DNA of 64,000 nt from Pseudoflavonifractor phocaeensis (lineage in GTDB: Bacteria > Bacillota > Clostridia > Oscillospirales > Oscillospiraceae), in NCBI RefSeq assembly GCF_016901955.1, contig NZ_JACJLC010000008.1, forward strand, positions 1 to 64,000, given 5' to 3'. A program made the translations under genes and the position numbers. Positions 49,709 to 61,772 of this stretch are shown here, piece after piece (position 1 is the stretch's first letter; each line of letters begins with the position of its first letter). The notes beneath the pieces are model-generated. The model did no database searches, was not told the origin of the DNA, and was given only the letters and a program-made list of their open reading frames with translations.

Positions 49709-49842
49709 TTATCACGCTTCGCCTGTTCGCAACGCGGTCACTGTTCACCGCTCCGCGAAAAATGCCGCTCCGCCTTCGGCGTCGCCTGTTTTTTCGTCTG
49801 CGCGGTTCACTGTGCCGCTGCTCACGACGGCTCAGGCGCTTA
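49709..49842 (-). repeat. Dispersed repeat directly after the rpsJ stop codon
   Basis: The second copy of the element that follows eno. On the minus strand it begins at the rpsJ stop (TAAGCGCCTGAGC) and shares GAACCGCGCAGAC, GCCGAAGGC, GCGGAGCGGTGA and GCGAAGCGTGA in the same order. It lengthens the rpsJ-rplC spacer to 259 bp, which is unusual inside the S10 operon. The remaining spacer holds a hairpin GCCTGTC..GACAGGC (49656-49680). Confidence 0.7.
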
Positions 49843-50154
49843 CAGCTTGATCTCGATCTCCACGCCGGCGGGGAGCTCCAGGCTCATCAGGGCCTCGACG
49901 GTCTTGGGAGAGGGCTTGAGGATGTCGATCAGGCGCTTGTGGGTGCGGCGCTCGAACTGCTCCCGGCTGTCCTTGTACTTGTGGACGGCCCGCAGGATGG
50001 TGACGACCTCCTTCTTGGTGGGCAGAGGGATGGGGCCGGACACGGAAGCGCCGGTGCGCTTGGCGGTCTCAACGATCTTCTCAGCGCTCTGGTCGATGAG
50101 CTGGTGATCGTAGGCCTTCAGACGGATGCGGATCATTTCTTTCTGAGCTGCCAT
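49840..50154 (-). CDS. rpsJ: 30S ribosomal protein S10
   Basis: 104 residues; [20 protein letters not shown] and the signature [16 protein letters not shown]. First gene of the S10 operon; also the NusE antitermination factor. Preceded by a leader of about 290 nt and followed by a dispersed repeat. Confidence 0.98.
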
Positions 50155-52112: not shown

Positions 52113-53513
52113 TCAGGGCAGCTTGTCCGCCAACAACTTTTTCATCTCCGCAGCGTCGATGGGCTGCCCGGTGAAGTACTCCAGGGCCAGCACCGCCTGA
52201 TTTACCAGCAGACCCAGCCCGTTCACCGTCTTGTGGCCCCGGTGTCTGGCCTGCCACAGCAGCTCGGTCTCAGCGGGGGCGTAGATGAGATCCACCACCG
52301 CCGTACCCGTTTTCAGCCCGTCCAGAAAGGTGAAGTCCTCAAACTGCCCGGCGGCCCCCTCCATGCCCAGGGAGGTGCAGTTTACCAGCAGGTCACAGGC
52401 GGTCGCCTCCTTATATAAGGTGGCCCGGTCAAATCCGGCGGGGCGCATATGGAGGGGGTCGAAGGCGCACAGCTCCTCCGCCTTCTCCACCGTGCGGTTG
52501 CACACCGTCAGCTGCGCCCCCGCCTGGACCAGCTTGAGGCACACCGCCTTGGCGGCGCCTCCCGCCCCCAGGATGAGGATCTTCATCCCCGCCGGGTGGA
52601 TGCCCTCGTCGTCCAGGGCCCGGAGGAACCCCTCCCCGTCGGTGTTGTAGCCGTAAGCCTTTCCATCCCGGATGCACACCGTGTTCACCGCTCCGATGAG
52701 CCGGGCGTCCCCGTCCAGCTCATCCATCAGGGGCACCAGCTCCTCCTTGTGGGGCATGGTGGCGTTGAACCCGGCGTAGCCGGCGAACTTGGCGCAGTCC
52801 AGCCACTGCTTACACTGCCCCCGGGGCACCGGCTGGCACAGGTACACATAGTCCAGCCCCAGGGCCTTCAGCATGGTATTGTGGAGCAGGGGGGACTTGG
52901 AGTGGCCCACCGGGTCCCCGATGACGCAGAGCTTTCGGGTGGAATTTTTCACTTCTACCTTCATATCGATCTCTCTCCGTTCCTCTACCGGCCGGTGGTC
53001 AGGGAGGGCGGCGTTCACCGCCAGGGCAATGAGCAGGCCCACAATGGTCTCGATCATCCGGGCAATGGCGTAATAGTACCGGGTCACTCCAGTGACCCCG
53101 GTGATAAGAATGACGCAGGGCAGGATGCAGGCCATACCGCAGGCGGTGGGCCGCTTGATGAGCAGGCAGAGCCACACCCCTGCCACACACACCGCCCCCA
53201 GCACCAGGGTTTTGAGCCAAAAATTCTCCAGGGCGGGGCCCAGCAGCAGGGTGGCGGTGCCCAGCACGCCGCCCACCAGCACGCCGATGAGACGGGACAG
53301 ACCCTGATGGAAGGTCTGGCCCAAGGTGCTCTGGGTGCAGATGATGCAGGCGATGCAGGCGTACAGGGGCCCCATCTGGCCCAGCACACCCCCCAGCTCC
53401 TCCCGATAGGTGAGCCCGAAGGGGAGGAAGAGGGCGTAGGATACCATCACCGCCACGGCGGTCTTGATGACCCGCATACCGATGCGGGGCAGGGGTACAG
53501 AGGGATGTTTCAT
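52113..53513 (-). CDS. aroE: Fusion of an aromatic-acid-exporter-like membrane domain with shikimate dehydrogenase
   Basis: 466 residues in one open frame. Residues 1-170 form about four to five hydrophobic segments of the FUSC/aromatic acid exporter (ArAE, DUF939) type (MRVIKTAVAVMVSYALFLPF, GLSRLIGVLVGGVLGTATLL). Residues 184-466 are a complete AroE: GDPVGHSKSPLLHNTML, FNATMPHKEEL with catalytic Lys, GYNTDGEGFLRAL and the NADP loop LGAGGAAKAV. An internal ATG (codon 184, at 52964) has GGAGAGAG upstream, so free AroE could also be made. AroE reduces 3-dehydroshikimate to shikimate. The membrane part might export or tether shikimate intermediates (inference). Start at 53513 follows AAGGAG. 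Confidence 0.9.
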   Translation of the reverse strand: MKHPSVPLPRIGMRVIKTAVAVMVSYALFLPFGLTYREELGGVLGQMGPLYACIACIICTQSTLGQTFHQGLSRLIGVLVGGVLGTATLLLGPALENFWLKTLVLGAVCVAGVWLCLLIKRPTACGMACILPCVILITGVTGVTRYYYAIARMIETIVGLLIALAVNAALPDHRPVEERREIDMKVEVKNSTRKLCVIGDPVGHSKSPLLHNTMLKALGLDYVYLCQPVPRGQCKQWLDCAKFAGYAGFNATMPHKEELVPLMDELDGDARLIGAVNTVCIRDGKAYGYNTDGEGFLRALDDEGIHPAGMKILILGAGGAAKAVCLKLVQAGAQLTVCNRTVEKAEELCAFDPLHMRPAGFDRATLYKEATACDLLVNCTSLGMEGAAGQFEDFTFLDGLKTGTAVVDLIYAPAETELLWQARHRGHKTVNGLGLLVNQAVLALEYFTGQPIDAAEMKKLLADKLP

Positions 53514-53541
53514 GCTTTCTCCTTATTTATGATGGAAGCTC

Positions 53542-53979
53542 TCATGGATTAGTTTCTCTGGAGAGAAAGTAACCAATGGCCGCCTCGTAGCCGTAGAGTC
53601 CCAGGCCACAGATCTGCCCTACGCAGGCGGGGGCGGTGACGCTCTTGTGGCGGAACTCCTCCCGCTGGTGGACGTTGGAGATGTGGACCTCGATGCAGGG
53701 CGCGTCCACCGCCTTCAGGGCGTCCAGGATGGCGTAGGAGTAGTGGGTGTAGGCCCCGGGGTTCATGATGATGGCGTCGTACACCCCATCGGCCCCGTGG
53801 ATGGCGTCGAGGATGGCCCCCTCGTGGTTGGACTGGAAGCAGTCCGCCGTGGAGCCGTGGGCAGCGGCAAAGTCCTTCAGCCGCCGGCACAGGGCCTCAT
53901 AGGTATTCTGCCCGTAAATACCCGGCTCCCGCTTGCCCAGCAGGTTCAGGTTGGGCCCGTTGATGATGAGGAATTTCAT
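53542..53979 (-). CDS. aroQ: 3-dehydroquinate dehydratase, type II
   Basis: A 145-residue dodecameric enzyme that converts 3-dehydroquinate to 3-dehydroshikimate. Signature NGPNLNLLGKREPGIYG with the catalytic Tyr, NPGAYTHYSYAI, and EVHISNVHQREEFRHKSV with the catalytic His. Coupled to aroK by ATGA overlap. Confidence 0.97.
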   Translation of the reverse strand: MKFLIINGPNLNLLGKREPGIYGQNTYEALCRRLKDFAAAHGSTADCFQSNHEGAILDAIHGADGVYDAIIMNPGAYTHYSYAILDALKAVDAPCIEVHISNVHQREEFRHKSVTAPACVGQICGLGLYGYEAAIGYFLSRETNP

Positions 53980-54482
53980 ACCCTCGCCTCCTGTTCATAA
54001 AGAGCGGCGATCTGTTCCGCCGCCGCCTGGGCGGTATCGGTGTTGGAAATGGTATACTGAGCGTATTTTCGATAGAGCTCGATCCGCTCCGTATACAGTT
54101 TTTTCAGCTTATCCGGCTGGCTGCCCACCAGGGGCCGACCGCTGTGGTCCTCCCCGATGATAGCCTCCAGGGCCCGGTCCCGGAAGAAGATCACCCCGGT
54201 GGCCCCCAGGGCCTCCATGTTCTCCGGCCGGAGGACCATCCCCCCGCCGGTGGCGATGACCGTCCCCTCCAGCCCGGCGGCCTGCCGGGCGGCGGCAGTC
54301 TCCCGGTCCCGGAAGGCCAACTCCCCCTCCGCGGCAAAGATCTCCGGGATGGTGGCCCCGGCGGCCCGCTCCACCAGCTCGTCGGTGTCCACCAGGGGCA
54401 GGTCCAGCAGCTGGGCCAGGATGCGGCCCACGGCGGTCTTGCCGCAGCCGGGCATGCCGATGAGCACGATGTTCTTCCTCAT
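53976..54482 (-). CDS. aroK: Shikimate kinase
   Basis: 168 residues. Walker A GMPGCGKTAVGRIL, shikimate-binding DTDELVE and GGGMVLR, and the lid SGRPLVG. Phosphorylates shikimate. Overlaps pheA and aroQ by four bases each. Confidence 0.97.
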   Translation of the reverse strand: MRKNIVLIGMPGCGKTAVGRILAQLLDLPLVDTDELVERAAGATIPEIFAAEGELAFRDRETAAARQAAGLEGTVIATGGGMVLRPENMEALGATGVIFFRDRALEAIIGEDHSGRPLVGSQPDKLKKLYTERIELYRKYAQYTISNTDTAQAAAEQIAALYEQEARV

Positions 54483-55648
54483 GGCCGCTCCTCCCAGGCC
54501 CGGTAGTTCCCCAGGATCCGGAACTCCGCCGCCAGCTGGCTCAGCTCATGGAGCACCCCGTCCATGCCGTCGGCGGCCAGATCGCCGGTGAAGTCCAGAA
54601 AGAACAGGTACTCCCAGCCCCGGCCGGGAATGGGCCGGGACTCCAGCTTCAGCAGGTTCAGGCCCTGGACGGCGAAGATGGTGAGGATCTCGTGGAGGGA
54701 GCCGCTCTGGTGGGGCAGGCGGAACATGGCGCTGATCTTGTTCCGGCCGGGCCGCAGCTCGGGAACAGGGGACACCACGGCAAACCGGGTGTGGTTCATG
54801 GTGTTATAGTTGACCCCTTCTGCCAGGATATGGAGGCCATAGAGCTCCGCCGCCCGGCGGGAGCAGATGGCGGCGGCGGTCCGGTCCCCGGTCTGGGCCA
54901 CCAGCTTGGCAGACCCGGCGGTGTCCAGGGTGGGCACCCGCTTCCACTCCCGGTGACTGTCCAGGTACTTTTCGCACTGCATCAGCCCCTGCTCATGGGA
55001 GTACACCGTCTGAATGTCCTCCAGAGCCACCCCGGGCAGGGCCATAAGGCAGTGTACCACCGGCACCTGCCACTCCCCCACGATGGAATAGCGGTACTGG
55101 GCCAGCAGATCGTACACCTGGCGGATGGAGCCGGTGGAGGAGTTCTCCACCGGCAGCACGGCGTAGTCGGCCTCGCCCCCCTCCAGGGCGGCGAACACGT
55201 CGGTGAACCAGGCCTTGCCGGCGCTGTTCACCTCCCTGCCGAAAAAGCCCACGGCGGCCTCCTCGCTGTAGCACCCCGGTTCCCCCTGGTAGGCAACCCG
55301 GGGATTGGCCACCGGCTGGCGCGCCCGGGCCAGGTCGGCCAGCCAGGAGGCGTAGCCCGGGTCCTCCGCCCCCTCCTTCACCAGGTGGCGCTGCTGGCGG
55401 CGGGAGATGGCCATGATGCTCTCATACAGGGCGGCCAGATCGGCCTTCCGGGCGGGGTCATCGGTGAGGGCGGCCCGGGCGGCAATGACCTCTTTTTCCC
55501 GCCCGGCGTCCAGCACCGGGATACCCTGACCCTGCTTATATTCCCCCACTTTCCCGGTGACCTCCATCCGCTCCAGGAAAAGGCGGACCAGTTCCCCGTC
55601 GATGCGGTCGATCTCCCGGCGGTATTGCTCCAGTTCGGTCATATCCAT
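54479..55648 (-). CDS. pheA: Bifunctional chorismate mutase/prephenate dehydratase
   Basis: 389 residues. Residues 1-90 are an AroQ-type chorismate mutase (LEQYRREIDRIDGELVRLFL). Residues about 115-295 form prephenate dehydratase (VAYQGEPGCYSEEAA, PVENSSTGSI, and the TRF motif in NHTRFAVVS). The C-terminal ACT domain has the Phe-binding ESRP motif (KLESRPIPGRGWEYLFF), so feedback by phenylalanine is expected. It commits the operon to phenylalanine; no tyrA is present here. Confidence 0.97.
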   Translation of the reverse strand: MDMTELEQYRREIDRIDGELVRLFLERMEVTGKVGEYKQGQGIPVLDAGREKEVIAARAALTDDPARKADLAALYESIMAISRRQQRHLVKEGAEDPGYASWLADLARARQPVANPRVAYQGEPGCYSEEAAVGFFGREVNSAGKAWFTDVFAALEGGEADYAVLPVENSSTGSIRQVYDLLAQYRYSIVGEWQVPVVHCLMALPGVALEDIQTVYSHEQGLMQCEKYLDSHREWKRVPTLDTAGSAKLVAQTGDRTAAAICSRRAAELYGLHILAEGVNYNTMNHTRFAVVSPVPELRPGRNKISAMFRLPHQSGSLHEILTIFAVQGLNLLKLESRPIPGRGWEYLFFLDFTGDLAADGMDGVLHELSQLAAEFRILGNYRAWEERP

Positions 55649-55656
55649 TCGCTCCT

Positions 55657-56700
55657 TTACAACCCCAGCACCTGGCAGGCGGCCAGGGCGGCGGCAGCCT
55701 CGATCACCGGCACCGCCCGGGGGACGATGCAGGGGTCGTGCCGGCCCTTGATCTCGATCTCCACCTCTTCCCCGGTGCGCAGGTCCACGCTCTCCTGGGG
55801 CAGGGAGATGGAAGGCGTGGGCCGGATGGTGACCTCAAAGGTCACCGGCATGCCGTTGGTGATGCCCCCGTTGACCCCACCGGCGTGGTTGGTGCGGGTG
55901 ACCACCTTTCCGTCCCGTACCTCAAAGGGGTCGTTGGCCTCGCTGCCCCGCATGAGGGAGAAGGCCACCCCGGCGCCGAAGTCCACCCCCTTGACGGCAG
56001 GGACGGCAAAGAGGTACTGGGAAAAAACCCCCTCCACGTTGCAGCCGAAGTCGGGGGCACCCAGCCCGGCGGGCAGGCCGGTGACGGCGCACTCGATGGC
56101 GCCTCCCACACTGTCCTGCTCCTCCTTGGCCTCCAGAATGGCCTGGCGCATCTCCTCCCCCTTGCCGTCGTCCAGCACGGGGAAGGCTTTGGCGGCCACC
56201 CCTTTCAGGTCCTCGGTGTCCTCCAGGGAGGCGTCGCAGATGCCGTAGATGGAGCTGATGTGGGCTCCCACCCACACGCCCCGACCGGCCAGCACCTGCT
56301 TGGCCACCGCCCCGGCGGCCACCAGGGGGGCGGTGAGCCGGCCGGAGAAGTGGCCGCCCCCCCGATAATCCAGGCAGCCCTGGCTTTTGATGAATCCGGC
56401 GTAGTCCCCATGGCCCGGCCGGGGGGTGTAGCGGATGGATTCATAATCGCCGGAGTGCTGGTCGGCATTGCGGATCACCATGGCCAGGGGGGCCCCGGTG
56501 GTCTTGCCCTCAAACACCCCGGACAGCACCTCCACCCGGTCGCTCTCCTTGCGGGCAGTGGCGGTGGGGTCCTGGCCCGGTTTGCGCCGGTCCAGCTCCT
56601 TCTGCACCTGCTCCAGGTCCAGGTCCAGCCCGGCGGGCACCCCCTCCACCACCACGCCGATGGCAGGGCCGTGGGATTCGCCAAAGATCATATGTCGCAT
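55657..56700 (-). CDS. aroC: Chorismate synthase
   Basis: A 347-residue FMN-dependent enzyme that makes chorismate from EPSP. Signatures GESHGPAIGVVVEGVPAG, DYRGGGHFSGRLTA and RGSEANDPFEV. Nine bases upstream of pheA. A palindromic repeat lies between it and aroA. Confidence 0.98.
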   Translation of the reverse strand: MRHMIFGESHGPAIGVVVEGVPAGLDLDLEQVQKELDRRKPGQDPTATARKESDRVEVLSGVFEGKTTGAPLAMVIRNADQHSGDYESIRYTPRPGHGDYAGFIKSQGCLDYRGGGHFSGRLTAPLVAAGAVAKQVLAGRGVWVGAHISSIYGICDASLEDTEDLKGVAAKAFPVLDDGKGEEMRQAILEAKEEQDSVGGAIECAVTGLPAGLGAPDFGCNVEGVFSQYLFAVPAVKGVDFGAGVAFSLMRGSEANDPFEVRDGKVVTRTNHAGGVNGGITNGMPVTFEVTIRPTPSISLPQESVDLRTGEEVEIEIKGRHDPCIVPRAVPVIEAAAALAACQVLGL

Positions 56701-56719
56701 AATCGTTCCTCCAATGGTC

Positions 56720-56781
56720 GGGCGGTCCGGAGGCCCGCCCCTACGTCCTTTTCCACAGGGGGCGGCGTCCCCGACGCCCCG
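56720..56781. repeat. Palindromic unit inside the shikimate operon
   Basis: GGGCGGTCCGGAGGCCCGCCC followed by CTAC (its first 20 bases are at 56720-56739), then GGGCGGCGTCCCCGACGCCCC at about 56759-56780. Same type as the units near 1.7 and 3.4 kb. It fills the aroA-aroC spacer and could act as a processing or attenuation hairpin in the operon mRNA. Confidence 0.55.
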
Positions 56782-57954
56782 TTATCCCCGGGCGATCCTC
56801 CCGCCCAGGGCCTCGTAGTCCCGCCAGAACTCCGGATAGGATTTCTGTACGCACTCCGCCCCGTCAATGGTCACCGGCTCCTCGCACCGGATGGCGGCGA
56901 TGGCGGCCATCATGGCGATACGGTGGTCGTTGTGGCCGGACACCTCCACCCCGCCGGGAAGCCGGTCTTTTCCAGTGATGGTCAGGGCGTCGGGGTGCTC
57001 CTCCACCTGGCCCCCCAGGGCACCCAGCACCTGGGTGACGGTGGCCAGCCGGTCGCTCTCCTTGATGCGCAGCCGTCCGGCGTTGACAATATGGGTGACC
57101 TGCCCCCGCCGCAGGGCGGCCATGGCCGCCAGAGGAGGCACCAGGTCGGGGCACTGGCTCACATCCAGCTCCACCGGCCCCTCTCCCTGTAATTTCATAT
57201 AATAGGGCACGATGCACATATCCCCCTGGGTGGAAAAGGCATTGAGCCCTTGGATCTCCAGATCACAGCCCAGGCTGATGGCGGCATACCAGAAAGCAGC
57301 GTTGGACCAGTCGGCCTCGACGGTCAGGTCCCGGGCCTGATAGGTCTGATTTCCCGGCACCCGGAAGGTACTCTCCCCGTCGTAGTCCGCCCGCACCCCG
57401 AACTGCTCCAGGGCGTCCAGAGTCATGTCCACATACCCCCGGGATTCCAGGGGGGTGGTCAGTAAGATCCGGCTGTCCCCCGGCAGCAGGGGGAGGGCGT
57501 ACAGCAGTCCGGTGATAAACTGGGAGGACACGTCCCCCGGCAGGACATAGTCCCCCGGCTCCAGCCTGCCCTCCACCGTCAGCATTCCCTCCGCCTGCCG
57601 GTAGGAGATCCCCCGCTCTCGGAAAAGAGCGAAATAGGGCTCCTGGGGCCGCTCCATCAGCCGCCCGCGGCCGGTAAAGCGGCCGCCCCCCCGGAGTGCC
57701 AGGGCCACCGGGATAAGGAAGCGGAGGGTGGAGCCGCTCTCCCCACAATCCAGCAGGGGCAGGTCCTCCCCCGGCTCTTTCAGGGCGGCCATGCACCGGA
57801 GAGTAGCGTCGATGTCCTGGGAGTGCGTAATGTGCCCGATATGGCTCTCCCCCGCCCCCAGGGCGGCGGCAATGATGAGCCGGTGGGCCTGGGATTTGGA
57901 GGAGGGCGGCGTAATGGTCCCTTTTAATAAGGTAGGGGTAACGGTGATCCTCAT
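56782..57954 (-). CDS. aroA: 3-phosphoshikimate 1-carboxyvinyltransferase (EPSP synthase)
   Basis: 390 residues, somewhat shorter than the 420-430 typical of class I enzymes. The N-terminal PPSSKSQAHRLIIAAAL and LDCGESGSTLRFLIPVAL are the substrate-binding regions; the C-terminal half has RIKESDRLATV and GHNDHRIAMMAAI. Adds phosphoenolpyruvate to shikimate-3-phosphate. Its start overlaps the aroB stop by ATGA. Confidence 0.97.
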   Translation of the reverse strand: MRITVTPTLLKGTITPPSSKSQAHRLIIAAALGAGESHIGHITHSQDIDATLRCMAALKEPGEDLPLLDCGESGSTLRFLIPVALALRGGGRFTGRGRLMERPQEPYFALFRERGISYRQAEGMLTVEGRLEPGDYVLPGDVSSQFITGLLYALPLLPGDSRILLTTPLESRGYVDMTLDALEQFGVRADYDGESTFRVPGNQTYQARDLTVEADWSNAAFWYAAISLGCDLEIQGLNAFSTQGDMCIVPYYMKLQGEGPVELDVSQCPDLVPPLAAMAALRRGQVTHIVNAGRLRIKESDRLATVTQVLGALGGQVEEHPDALTITGKDRLPGGVEVSGHNDHRIAMMAAIAAIRCEEPVTIDGAECVQKSYPEFWRDYEALGGRIARG

Positions 57955-59015
57955 GCCAGCGCCTCCAGCAGAGCAGCCTTGTCCATCCGCCAGGGGATGG
58001 CATGTCCCAGCTCCTCCAACACGATAAGGGAGATCTGCTCCCCCGTTCCCTTCTTGTCCAGCCCCACAGCAGCGGCGTACTCTGCCCCGGTACAGGGGAT
58101 GGCGGTGGGCAGGCCCAGGGCCTCCAGCAGACCGGCGATCTTCTCAGCCGTTCCCGCCGGTGTAACCCCCAGGGAGGTCCCCAGCCGGGCGGCTTTTACC
58201 ATCCCGGCGGCCACCGCCTGGCCGTGGGTCCAGGTCTGGTAGTGCCCCGCCAGCTCATAGGCGTGGCCCAGGGTGTGGCCGAAGTTGAGCAGCATCCGCT
58301 CCCCGGTGTCCCGCTCATCCCGTTCCACTACCATCCGTTTAATATTACAGCAGGTATACAAAATGTGTTCAATTTCTCCCATCAGGGCAGTTCGATCCGG
58401 ACGCTGGGCCAGGAAGGCAAAGAAGGCCCCGTCCTTGATGCAGCCGTACTTCACCACCTCGGCCATGCCGTCGGCAAAGGTGGCGTCGGGCAGGGTTTCC
58501 AGCACCTCCGGGTCCATGAGCACCAGCCGGGGCTGCCAGAAGGCCCCGGCCAGATTCTTCCCGGCCTCCAGGTCGATGGCTACCTTGCCTCCCACGGAGG
58601 AGTCCACCTGGGCCAGCAGGGTAGTAGGGATCTGGACAAAGTCCACCCCCCGGAGGATGGTGGCGGCGGCAAAGCCCGCCAGGTCCCCCACCACGCCGCC
58701 GCCCAGGGCCACCACGGCGTCGGTGCGGGTGAGGCGGGCGGCCATCATGGCCTCCCACAGTCCGGCCAGCTGGCCGGCGCACTTGGAAGACTCTCCGGCC
58801 GGGATCACGTGGCTGCTCACCTGGAACCCGGCGGCGGCCAGGCTGTCCGCCGTTGTTTGCAGATACAGCGGGGCCACGTTGGCGTCGGTGACCACAAACA
58901 GCCGCCCGGCCTTGGGGAGGGCCTTGCGGCAACACTCCCCTGCCCGGGCCAGCAGCCCTCGCTGGATGAGAATATCATAGCTGCGCCCCGGCAGGGACAC
59001 GGTGAGAGTTTTCAT
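57951..59015 (-). CDS. aroB: 3-dehydroquinate synthase
   Basis: 354 residues from the ATG at 59015 (GAAAGGACG upstream). NAD-binding segment GGGVVGDLAGFAAATILRGV, metal-binding region LNFGHTLGHAYEL, and QIPTTLLAQVDSSVGGKVAID. Converts DAHP to 3-dehydroquinate. Follows aroF after 60 bp. Confidence 0.97.
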   Translation of the reverse strand: MKTLTVSLPGRSYDILIQRGLLARAGECCRKALPKAGRLFVVTDANVAPLYLQTTADSLAAAGFQVSSHVIPAGESSKCAGQLAGLWEAMMAARLTRTDAVVALGGGVVGDLAGFAAATILRGVDFVQIPTTLLAQVDSSVGGKVAIDLEAGKNLAGAFWQPRLVLMDPEVLETLPDATFADGMAEVVKYGCIKDGAFFAFLAQRPDRTALMGEIEHILYTCCNIKRMVVERDERDTGERMLLNFGHTLGHAYELAGHYQTWTHGQAVAAGMVKAARLGTSLGVTPAGTAEKIAGLLEALGLPTAIPCTGAEYAAAVGLDKKGTGEQISLIVLEELGHAIPWRMDKAALLEALA

Positions 59016-59075
59016 AGCCGCTTCGTCCTTTCCCGCGCGGTGGGCCGTCAAGCCGCGAGCCCTTCGCGCCTCGTT

Positions 59076-60095
59076 TTATTTTACCAGTGTCTTCCCCACC
59101 AGGTCAACCAGAGCGGTGACCTTGTGCATCAGGGCGTCAAAGTTCTGAGGGGTGAGGGACTGCTGTCCGTCGCACTTGGCGTGGGCGGGGTCGTTGTGGA
59201 CCTCGATGATAAGGCCGTCGGCGCCGGCGGCCACAGCGGCCAGGGCCAGGGGCTCCACCATCCAGTACATCCCGGCTGCGTGGGAGGGGTCCACGATGAT
59301 AGGCAGGTGGCTCATCTGCTTGATGGCGGGGATAGCGGACACGTCCAGGGTGTTGCGGGTGTAGGTCTCAAAGGTGCGCATCCCCCGCTCGCACAGGATC
59401 ACGTTCTCGTTGCCCTCGCTCATGATATACTCGGCGGACATGATCCATTCCTCGTAGGTATTGGACAGCCCCCGCTTCAGGAGGATGGGTTTGCTCATCT
59501 TACCCACCTCTTTGAGCAGCTCGAAGTTCTGCATGTTCCGGGCCCCCACCTGGACCACATCCACCTCCCGCTCGAAGAGGTCGCACATCCGGGGGTCCAT
59601 GATTTCGGTGACGATGGGCAGGCCGGTCTTGGCCCGGGCCTCCATCAGCAGGTCCAGCCCGGCGGTCCCCATGCCCTGAAAGGAATAGGGGGAGGTGCGG
59701 GGCTTGAAGGCGCCTCCCCGGAGCAGGGCGGCGCCGGAGGCCTTCACATCCTCAGCCACGGCGCAGATCTGTTCCTCGCTTTCCACCGAACAGGGGCCGG
59801 CAATGACCGAAAAGTTTCCGCCGCCGATCTTGGCCTTGCCTACGCTCACCACCGTGTCCTCCGGGTGGAACTTCCGGTTGGCCTTTTTATAGGGCTCCTG
59901 GACCCGCATGACCCGCTCCACGTTGGGATCAATGGAGATCTTGTCCATATCCACGGCGGTGGTATCGCCCACCAGGCCCAGAATGGTGCAGCCCACGCCG
60001 TTGGTGACGCCGATCTCCAGGCCCTGCTCCTTCAGCTTTTCCACCAGACGCTGGATACTCTCCTGGCTGGTACCGGGCTTCATGACGACTACCAT
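59076..60095 (-). CDS. aroF: DAHP synthase, type I-beta, with N-terminal regulatory domain
   Basis: 339 residues, first enzyme of the shikimate pathway (PEP + erythrose-4-phosphate). Residues 1-70 are the ferredoxin-like regulatory domain (MVVVMKPGTSQESIQRLVEK), and the barrel holds AGPCSVESEEQ, GGAFKPRTSPYSFQG, KPILLKRGL and VDPSHAAG. The ATG at 60095 is spaced correctly from GAAAGG; another ATG touches that site. First gene of the operon, behind a Phe-rich leader peptide and terminator. Confidence 0.96.
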   Translation of the reverse strand: MVVVMKPGTSQESIQRLVEKLKEQGLEIGVTNGVGCTILGLVGDTTAVDMDKISIDPNVERVMRVQEPYKKANRKFHPEDTVVSVGKAKIGGGNFSVIAGPCSVESEEQICAVAEDVKASGAALLRGGAFKPRTSPYSFQGMGTAGLDLLMEARAKTGLPIVTEIMDPRMCDLFEREVDVVQVGARNMQNFELLKEVGKMSKPILLKRGLSNTYEEWIMSAEYIMSEGNENVILCERGMRTFETYTRNTLDVSAIPAIKQMSHLPIIVDPSHAAGMYWMVEPLALAAVAAGADGLIIEVHNDPAHAKCDGQQSLTPQNFDALMHKVTALVDLVGKTLVK

Positions 60096-60113
60096 AACAA
60101 ACATCCTTTCAAA

Positions 60114-60159
60114 CAAAAAATAAGAAAAGGGCGCCCATTGATGAACTCAATGAGCGCCC
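60114..60159 (-). terminator. Attenuator-type terminator before aroF
   Basis: In RNA (minus strand) GGGCGCTCATTG / CAATGGGCGCCC forms a 12-bp stem with a 7-base loop (60129-60159), followed by TTTTCTTATTTTTT (60114-60128). It lies between the leader peptide and aroF, whose start codon is only about 20 nt further. A preceding hairpin TGGGGC-GAAG-GCCCCA (about 60179-60195) may take part in alternative folding. Confidence 0.85.
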
Positions 60160-60204
60160 AGCATACAAACAGGCTCTATGGGGCCTTCGCCCCACCCATT
60201 TCAT

Positions 60205-60306
60205 TCATCCCTCTGATTTCCCCATGCCAAAAAAGCCGGCGCCCATAAATCGAGCCCAGCCAAAGGAAAACAGGAAGGATGCGGTTGTGAGGGAGCGGTG
60301 TGCCAT
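60205..60306 (-). CDS. Phe-rich leader peptide of the shikimate operon
   Basis: A 33-residue frame from ATG 60306 with a good ribosome site (GTGAGGA, about seven bases away). Residues 11-26 read FLFSFGWARFMGAGFF: six Phe and one Trp in 16 positions. It starts about 30 nt after the predicted transcription start and stops 45 nt before the terminator hairpin. This is the design of a ribosome-mediated attenuator responding to charged tRNA-Phe (and perhaps tRNA-Trp). Confidence 0.75.
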   Translation of the reverse strand: MAHRSLTTASFLFSFGWARFMGAGFFGMGKSEG

Positions 60307-60342
60307 GGTACGGTTCCTCACTTCTCAAAACAGGTTGGAGTC

Positions 60343-60371
60343 ATTATACCCCTTGGTTTTTCAAATTGCAA
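60343..60371 (-). promoter_or_regulatory. Promoter of the shikimate operon
   Basis: Minus strand -35 TTGCAA (60366-60371), 17-bp spacer, -10 TATAAT (60343-60348). Transcription would start near 60336, just before the leader peptide. Confidence 0.8.
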
Positions 60372-60391
60372 CCGGGATTTTGTACAAAGCC

Positions 60392-60410
60392 CCGGGCCAT
60401 TTCGGCCCGG
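60392..60410 (-). terminator. Hairpin after the MATE gene
   Basis: CCGGGCC / GGCCCGG with a 5-base loop lies directly after the stop and is followed on the minus strand by GGGCTTTG, a weak T-run. Probable terminator. Confidence 0.6.
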
Positions 60411-60416
60411 TCTCTC

Positions 60417-61772
60417 TCAATTCTGAGCCTCTACCGCCGGGATATGCCGCAGCAGCCGCCACAGGCAGAGGGCAAAGAGCACCGAGCTGATGGACCAGGT
60501 CAGAGGGTAGGCCCAGTACACCACCCGGATATCGGGGATGAGCCGGACGGTTACGGTGATATAGGTGATGCGCAGGGCACACCACACCGACAGCATGATG
60601 GCCATAGGTACGATAGGCCGGCCCATGCCCCGGAGGATACCGGCGGAGCAGTGGGAGAAGGACAGCAGGCAGTAAAACAGGGATACGGTGCGGGCGTAGG
60701 CCACCCCGAAGGCCACCACCTCGGGCTCGCTGTTGAAGGCGGCCACCAGCACCGGGGAAGCGGTAAAAATGATGACGCCAATGACCTCGGCCAGCAGGGG
60801 ACTGCACAGCAGGCCGAACCGCATTCCCGCCCGCACCCGGTCAAACCGCCGGGCCCCCAGGTTCTGGCTGACAAAGGTGGACAGGGCCAGGGCAAAGCAG
60901 GTCACCGGCAAAAAGGCAAAGCCCTCGATGCGGCTGTAGGCCCCGCAGCCCGCCATGGCCGCCGAGTCAAAGGAATTGATGTTGGCCTGGACGATGACGT
61001 TGGCCAGGGAGATCACCGAGTTCTGCACCCCGGAGGGCAGTCCCAGAGTGATGATCTGCCGGAAGGCGGGTCCCTGGAACCCCACCCGCCGCCAGGTCAC
61101 CTTGTAGCATTCCCCGGTGCGGGTGAGCTTGCGGAAGGCCAGGAAGGCGGACAGGCACTGGCTGAGGATGGTGGCCAGGGCGGCGCTGCCCACCCCCAGA
61201 TTCAGCACCGCCACAAACAGCAGGTCCAGCACCACATTGGCCGCCGAGGCCGCCAGCAGATACTTCATGGGGCTGCGGCTGTCCCCCACCGACTGGAGGA
61301 TGCTGGCCCCCATGTTGTAGAGCACCACGGCGGAGGAGCCCAGGAAGTACACCCGGAAGTAGAGGATGGAGCTGTCGATGACGTCGGTGGGGGTACCGAT
61401 CCACCGCAGCAGCTGGGGAGTGAGGGCCACCCCCAGCACGGTGAGCGCCGCCCCGGCGCACAGTCCCAGGGCCACGGTAGTATGGATGGCCCGGCTCATG
61501 CGCTCCTCGTCCTCCGCCCCGTAGTACCGGGCGATGAGCACTCCCGCTCCCAGGGACACGCCGTTGATAAACCCGATGAGCAGCATGATCATGCTGCTGG
61601 AGGAGCTCACCGCCGCCAGGGCGGGCCGGCCGATAAAGTTTCCTACAATAAGGGAATCCACGGCGTTGTACAGCTGCTGGAACAGGTTGCTGAAAAAGAT
61701 GGGCAGGGCGAAGGTCAGCATTTTTTTGGGGACGCTGCCCTCCGTCAGCCGGTTGTGCCCGGTGTGGTCCAC
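60417..61772 (-). CDS. MATE-family efflux transporter
   Basis: 451 residues, about twelve transmembrane helices in two homologous bundles. The N-terminus is typical (LTEGSVPKKMLTFALPIFFS, then NLFQQLYNAVDSLIVGNFIG). Related exporters use Na+ or H+ gradients to expel cationic compounds. It lies upstream of the shikimate operon, with a terminator between. Substrate unknown. Confidence 0.93.
   Translation of the reverse strand: MDHTGHNRLTEGSVPKKMLTFALPIFFSNLFQQLYNAVDSLIVGNFIGRPALAAVSSSSSMIMLLIGFINGVSLGAGVLIARYYGAEDEERMSRAIHTTVALGLCAGAALTVLGVALTPQLLRWIGTPTDVIDSSILYFRVYFLGSSAVVLYNMGASILQSVGDSRSPMKYLLAASAANVVLDLLFVAVLNLGVGSAALATILSQCLSAFLAFRKLTRTGECYKVTWRRVGFQGPAFRQIITLGLPSGVQNSVISLANVIVQANINSFDSAAMAGCGAYSRIEGFAFLPVTCFALALSTFVSQNLGARRFDRVRAGMRFGLLCSPLLAEVIGVIIFTASPVLVAAFNSEPEVVAFGVAYARTVSLFYCLLSFSHCSAGILRGMGRPIVPMAIMLSVWCALRITYITVTVRLIPDIRVVYWAYPLTWSISSVLFALCLWRLLRHIPAVEAQN

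Follow-up and report, generated by a model that had tools for sequence, protein, structure and literature searches.

A conserved, very probable phenylalanine leader-peptide attenuator before the aroF operon of Pseudoflavonifractor phocaeensis, paired with a tyrosine-type switch

The phe and trp leader attenuators of enterobacteria work through four RNA segments and their pairings, 1:2, 2:3 and 3:4. A Phe-rich leader found upstream of aroF in Pseudoflavonifractor phocaeensis resembles them in its four-segment logic, its clustered control codons and a terminator before the first gene, but its operon is led by aroF, and no Rfam leader family was matched at gathering score either here or in 20 related loci. 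T-boxes, the better-known device in Clostridia, likewise sense the charging of one tRNA and control a terminator, but they bind the tRNA directly, without a leader peptide, and no T-box match was found here.

According to the available part of one paper, T-boxes control most aminoacyl-tRNA synthetase genes in Firmicutes, and classical attenuation controls none; the same text mentions attenuators on Phe genes in other species (PMC1262725). Leader-peptide systems for other amino acids have been described, at least in the accessible portions of their sources. For example, His leader attenuators precede his operons in 17 Firmicutes genomes, including Clostridioides difficile (PMC9413887), and His leader peptides precede hisS/hisZ in bacilli, in a report whose authors, apart from ermC, knew of no leader peptides outside Proteobacteria and Actinobacteria (PMC2965389). 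A Leu-rich attenuator is reported from Staphylococcus aureus (PMC5794164). As far as these partial texts go, the His attenuators resemble the present locus in being of the leader-peptide type, with five Eubacteriales among their hosts, C. difficile included, in genomes that have neither a His T-box nor a repressor; they differ in using His codons, in standing before his operons or hisS/hisZ and in not being aromatic (PMC9413887, PMC2965389).

The closest published precedent found, judged from the accessible portion of its source, is uORFC-13-1 before Acholeplasma aroF. Its 24 representatives precede aroF in Acholeplasma and environmental DNA only, with Phe codon(s) and a terminator, and attenuation has been proposed for it (PMC8632094). 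Compared by description only, the two share the gene, a uORF with Phe codon(s), a possible promoter, a ribosome-binding site and an adjacent intrinsic terminator, but the available text on uORFC-13-1 specifies 'at least one' Phe codon and describes no Phe/Tyr isozyme split (PMC8632094). The openly accessible literature, a scope that leaves out most subscription papers, yielded no account of aromatic leader attenuators from Clostridia. The kind of switch is classical; this member, its spread and the Phe/Tyr isozyme split appear to be undescribed.

The window, that is, the whole stretch of 64,000 nucleotides that was analysed, belongs to a host genome of 3.5 Mb, with Flavonifractor plautii (G013, L005) among its congeners. 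The promoter, leader frame, terminator and aroF operon all lie on its minus strand, with the following features:

60343..60371, minus strand: promoter TTGCAA-17-TATAAT, sigma-70 type (promoter scan)
60316..60321, minus strand: leader Shine-Dalgarno site GTGAGG, also the 5' arm of a possible 6-bp hairpin
60205..60306, minus strand: predicted leader peptide frame MAHRSLTTASFLFSFGWARFMGAGFFGMGKSEG, 33 codons plus stop (ATG at 60306, stop at 60207..60205)
60277..60282, minus strand: predicted outer arm of segment 1, GCATCC, codons 9-10, pairing with GGATG at 60210..60206 (RNAalifold, swap test)
60235..60260, minus strand: predicted inner hairpin of 1:2 around codons 16-24 (GCTGGGCTCG / TGGGC-G-CCGGC)
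60193..60210, minus strand: segment 2 (GGATGAATGAAATGGGTG), overlapping the leader stop codon and a predicted partner of both segments 1 and 3
60179..60194, minus strand: small G+C hairpin TGGGGC GAAG GCCCCA between segments 2 and 3 (by eye)
60140..60159, minus strand: segment 3, the terminator 5' arm and loop (GGGCGCTCATTGAGTTCATC)
60129..60141, minus strand: segment 4, the terminator 3' arm
60159..60129, minus strand: terminator, 13 pairs with a 5-nt loop
60114..60128, minus strand: T-rich tail, the expected end of the attenuated RNA
59076..60095, minus strand: aroF (DAHP synthase), the first regulated gene (Pfam PF00793, PF18152)
52113..59051, minus strand: aroB, aroA, aroC, pheA (CM-PDT), aroK, aroQ and aroE (Pfam)

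A first-pass annotation of this DNA had described a near-consensus promoter, a Shine-Dalgarno site and a 33-codon frame with six Phe codons and one Trp codon in 16 positions, and both the description and the coordinates were confirmed. The promoter is the sole promoter-like site in 59900-60500 (10/12 matches; shuffle mean 0.4), and TATAAT stands at its position in each of 18 aligned relatives, in an alignment that was itself trimmed at TATAAT. The Phe codons occupy positions 11, 13, 15, 20, 25 and 26 and, together with Trp17, fall within 16 codons. The terminator (-24.7 kcal/mol; z -7.6 against shuffles) had been given as a 12-bp hairpin with a long T-run; the hairpin and a T-rich tail to 60114 stand, but there are 13 pairs, not 12. 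Pfam matches bear out the eight-gene operon placed behind the leader, in the order aroF-aroB-aroA-aroC-pheA-aroK-aroQ-aroE, where pheA encodes chorismate mutase-prephenate dehydratase and aroF, judged against its relatives, probably starts at 60095. Several features of attenuators are found here, including a predicted short frame with its own start codon and Shine-Dalgarno site, placed between promoter and terminator, an intrinsic terminator ahead of the first gene, and control codons that match the end product of the operon (six Phe in 16 codons, with pheA in the operon).

The Shine-Dalgarno site GTGAGG can also pair with CCTCAC (60292..60287, codons 5-8), in a hairpin that spans 60287-60321. 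In 30 sequences, 88% of cells in this hairpin are paired, and covariation does not support it because no pair has changed on both sides. By eye, it was not apparent in leaders that are more distant. This hairpin may limit repeated translation of the leader.

RNAalifold, applied to 18 leaders, predicts a long 1:2 element that joins GCATCC at codons 9-10 to GGATG at the stop codon. Its inner hairpin has 96.7% of cells paired, with one-sided variation. A 2:3 antiterminator, in which GATGAA..AATGGGTG pairs with CGCTCATT..TTCATC, was obtained once the terminator 3' arm had been left out. The small G+C hairpin between segments 2 and 3 is also present in relatives, with other sequences (by eye). As predicted pairings, 1:2, 2:3 and 3:4 constitute the classical four-segment attenuator geometry, in which antiterminator 2:3 and protector 1:2 are predicted to be mutually exclusive and, by the comparisons below, to co-evolve. 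The covariation term of RNAalifold on the genus alignment was -0.62; this alignment holds little covariation because its sequences are too alike. A swap test that needs no alignment was applied as well, along with a wider alignment.

Across the window, 10 start codons (both strands, several nested) open a short frame with a Shine-Dalgarno site and at least five aromatic residues in 14 codons, so the leader frame alone is not decisive, even with the most Phe among these starts (6 in 16). What is decisive, from sequence comparison, is the conservation of the predicted frame. The leader is present in 17/17 Flavonifractor orthologues, the window's own included (L001-L016, L049; G010, G011 and G019, with aroF split or partial, fall outside this count), and also in a genome of the same family, G033 (L017). 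When the leader was aligned across related genomes, as the first-pass annotation had proposed, aromatic codons and hairpin arms proved conserved and co-varying; the loss of the frame or of its Phe codons in relatives, which it had named as evidence against an attenuator, was not what was found.

Across 16 Flavonifractor genomes, synonymous third-position divergence is 0.041 in the 23-codon leader core compared with 0.206 in aroF, lower than in all 316 aroF windows (minimum 0.091), and divergence at first and second codon positions of the core is 0.040. Third positions are thus frozen like first and second ones, so the constraint looks like one on RNA and codon identity, not on the peptide alone. 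This bears on a reading in which it is the peptide that halts the ribosome, in response to free Phe or some other ligand and not to tRNA charging. Such an arrest peptide would fit the core LTTASxLFSxGWARFMGxGFFGM, which is almost invariant in 16 Flavonifractor genomes, but it is disfavoured because third codon positions are as frozen as the others; outside the genus, moreover, the peptide sequence drifts, and what persists is the richness in aromatics together with the pairings. An arrest peptide is accordingly improbable.

For a ribosome-mediated Phe attenuator, the evidence extends to the pairings. In alignment-based counts from 30 relatives, which are inflated by the kinship of the sequences, 95.1% of cells hold standard pairs (Shine-Dalgarno hairpin, 1:2, inner hairpin and 3:4), with both-sided changes lying mostly in the terminator (6/8 pairs) and a covariation score matched by 0/500 shuffles. 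The corresponding values for 2:3 are 92.6% and 2/500, and slid structures drop to 26-63% paired. Relatedness being the concern, the swap test was made free of alignment: segments 1-4 were cut by rule from each leader, duplex energies were compared between own and permuted partners, and the terminator was selected without regard to its fit to segments 1 or 2. The first set of 107 loci with leader and terminator came to 71 after removal of near-duplicates. In these 71, 2:3 reached z -11.1 and 1:2 z -9.3 (0/5000 permutations as good), compared with -1.6 and +1.0 for the control pairings 1:3 and 2:4; the value for 3:4 (-28.8) is circular.

This pattern recurred in the variants of the test. Permuting only among loci of similar G+C gave -9.2 for 2:3 and -6.5 for 1:2 (controls 1:3 -0.3, 2:4 +2.5, 1:4 -1.1), and strict dereplication to 40 loci gave -6.9 and -5.4. 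The 19 GWARF-like loci yielded -3.9 and -2.7, and the other 52 loci -7.7 and -5.8. In 32 new, independent class-wide loci, with the densest window's last aromatic codon as the boundary of segments 1 and 2 (the frame's last aromatic codon in the 71-locus set), the values were -9.9 and -11.4, with controls at -0.5, -1.3 and 0.0. By these sequence comparisons, the predicted pairings that an attenuator needs co-evolve, whereas the control pairings that it does not need do not. No 2:3 excess was seen in 11 of the 71 loci and no 1:2 excess in 10. Taken singly and set against shuffles, 2:3 reached p 0.05 in 42/107 loci; the window's own 2:3 did not reach significance when segment 2 was shuffled for comparison (z -1.2, p 0.095). 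The attenuator proposed in the first-pass annotation is supported by these results, and the antiterminator, absent from that annotation, co-evolves with the terminator 5' arm.

The leader region is thus very likely to be a conserved, ribosome-mediated Phe leader-peptide transcription attenuator. Its anatomy, conservation, co-evolution and match of codons to pathway branch are computed, and from these we infer translation, stalling, readthrough and its direction. RNA polymerase would start near 60336, and a ribosome would begin the leader. With charged Phe-tRNA in short supply, the ribosome would stall at the Phe codons and break the 1:2 pairing; segment 2, once freed, would pair with the emerging segment 3 and delay the 3:4 terminator, and polymerase would read into the eight-gene shikimate/phenylalanine operon. 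With Phe-tRNA plentiful, the ribosome would get to the stop codon inside segment 2 and cover that segment, allowing the 3:4 terminator to form and the RNA to end near 60114. With no ribosome, 1:2 could form, and termination would follow.

Folding was also modelled for different ribosome positions, by forbidding pairs under an assumed footprint on a transcript assumed to start at 60336. At the stage when segment 3 has emerged and segment 4 has not, the modelled probability of GATGAA:TTCATC is 0.97 for a ribosome at F11, 0.83 at F13, 0.76 at F15 and 0.98 at F26; a stall at F20 would add no 2:3 (0.46 compared with 0.45 without a ribosome). Without a ribosome, 2:3 still competes with 1:2 in the model. 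The stop codon lies in segment 2, and with the ribosome there the modelled probability of 2:3 is 0 under the assumed footprint. In all ribosome states modelled, equilibrium favours the terminator as soon as segment 4 has been made, so the switch would have to be kinetic, depending on co-transcriptional timing.

Across related genomes, one detection rule finds an aromatic leader in 113/138 aroF upstreams; dinucleotide shuffles give 2.2% per locus (2.8% and 3.8% in the two subsets), and a reverse-strand control gives 10/138. By residue, the loci observed numbered 73 for Phe and 45 for Tyr vs 3.5 and 0.4 in shuffles, with Gly at 41 vs 7.9 and Thr at 9 vs 0.9. The 138 loci are L001-L150 minus nine repeat-genome loci (L071-L078, L111) and minus L020, L079 and L118, which have no upstream DNA. 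A detector limited to 45 codons missed long leaders, among them those of several Clostridium species, and the tally therefore used one of up to 60 codons, reaching 350 bases upstream (400 bases class-wide); some of the 25 leader-less loci have a leader just beyond this rule.

In a class-wide draw, 79/108 genomes were matched, and one place from each of 73 plus six second copies made up 79 places. Excluded were G000 and G048 (already in the set), G158 (contig edge) and G130, G142 and G164 (partial matches), and for G146 the second-best place was taken, its best lying at a contig edge. An aromatic leader was present in 41/79 places, nearly all before homologues of at least ~57% identity, and none was detected in 38/79, among them all six second aroF copies (0/6 with leader). 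One of the 41, L251, has no terminator and is probably due to chance. Names of metagenome bins (e.g. Lentisphaerae, Fusobacteria) may be wrong and are not counted as evidence of spread beyond Clostridia.

These frequencies also weigh on a reading in which the Phe-rich frame is incidental, the hairpin being the terminator of the upstream MATE gene or a plain promoter-proximal terminator. In the window, which has 116 open frames with 150 codons or more, the same rule does pick out aromatic-rich short frames ahead of two places besides aroF (three rows, of which two are nested). Chance, however, gives such leaders at 2-4% in shuffles compared with 113/138 here, the promoter separates the leader from the MATE gene, relatives differ in the DNA ahead of the promoter while keeping the leader (by eye), and the alternative pairings co-evolve. 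A pure chance frame is rejected by conservation and co-evolution, and the reading is highly improbable. Control of the operon by a tRNA-binding T-box leader, to which the 16 T-box matches in the host genome and a T-box motif before aroF in a few relatives might point, is rejected with next to no probability left to it, since no covariance-model match lies upstream of aroF: as the first-pass annotation had noted, no T-box architecture is visible, with no match in 59900-60500 at E up to 10 and none in the window at gathering score.

No Rfam match of any kind rises above chance in 59900-60500 at E up to 10. In the 20 leader-bearing related loci no Rfam family reached gathering score, and a scan of 20 of 23 named loci for RNA families returned tRNA only. 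The T-box motif is rarer than the leader before aroF, being present, by motif only, in 6/79 class-wide loci and 4/138 related loci (L030, L061, L128 and L132, of which L030 and L061 fit the Rfam model too). In many gut Clostridia, Flavonifractor plautii included, entry into the aromatic pathway would be under a switch without a matching Rfam 15 family, and leader-peptide and T-box control would exchange on the same gene, aroF.

The probable Phe leader attenuator is one half of a Phe/Tyr pair of such switches. A second aroF in the same genome (G000:C251, L151) carries a Tyr-rich leader, MARWFGFGYYAYRCSYASGVFPCP, starting from GTG, and its next gene is tyrA (PDH_N, PDH_C). Leader codons match the pathway branch, Phe with pheA and Tyr with tyrA: pheA lies within the Phe-leader operon in 11/11 cases tested (the window and 10 others), and tyrA follows the Tyr-leader aroF in 18/18 genomes tested (own plus 17; G016 is outside the count). 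The Tyr-type leaders have the same geometry, with 93.9% and 92.6% of cells paired and 0/500 shuffles in both. One of their positions co-changes in segments 2, 3 and 4 (T-A-T in 9, C-G-C in 7, other in 2; n=18), a pattern that perhaps reflects few events.

Codon content separates the two types. Phe/(Phe+Tyr) is 0.83-1.0 in 18 Phe-type leaders, 12 of which contain one Tyr, and 0.14-0.43 in 18 Tyr-type leaders. In 19 hand-picked loci from genomes with one full-length aroF, some of them incomplete or with fragments of a second copy, it is 0.43-0.86 (median 0.56), and most of these leaders mix Phe and Tyr. In a further 54 loci that have a leader and whose downstream gene was identified, the median Phe share is 0.5 with tyrA downstream (n=17) vs 0.75 without (n=37; p 3e-5 by Mann-Whitney test, with no correction for relatedness).

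On balance, we lean towards a history in which the old and widely shared way of controlling DAHP synthase in Clostridia is leader-peptide attenuation and not the T-box. Following duplication of aroF, leaders would have been re-addressed by codon exchange (Phe with pheA, Tyr with tyrA), while species with one aroF would keep a mixed leader that senses both. Mixed, Phe-rich and Tyr-rich leaders would then form a natural series whose codons show how regulation specialises once a gene has been duplicated.

At three second aroF copies, L169-L171, no obvious leader was seen by eye. Upstream of the second aroF of G033 (L048 1-603), a Tyr-rich frame stops 183 bases before aroF, farther than in other Tyr-type loci, with extra sequence beyond a terminator-like hairpin; the switch may be displaced there.

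Other features of the window lie in and around the operon. There is no tRNA gene within the 64 kb, and the sole Rfam match at gathering score is the S10-Clostridia ribosomal protein leader RF03136 (50355-50432, minus strand, 38.1 bits), upstream of a 104-codon minus-strand frame (49840-50154) of a size that fits rpsJ. A 246-codon open frame at 57263-58003 (minus strand) overlaps the aroB/aroA junction in a different frame, has no Pfam/NCBIfam match and is probably not a gene. The aroE product (52113-53513, minus strand) carries an N-terminal ArAE_1/FUSC_2 domain, aromatic acid exporter-like, at residues ~10-169 before the shikimate dehydrogenase; matches to the aroE region are ~1.4 kb long in 8/10 related genomes, which suggests that the fusion is conserved. 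Finally, aroK (53979-54482, minus strand) shares 84-92% identity with 2/10 compared genomes (L175, L181) and 39-47% with the other eight, and the adjoining genes keep higher identity across the same ten genomes; in-place replacement of aroK is possible.
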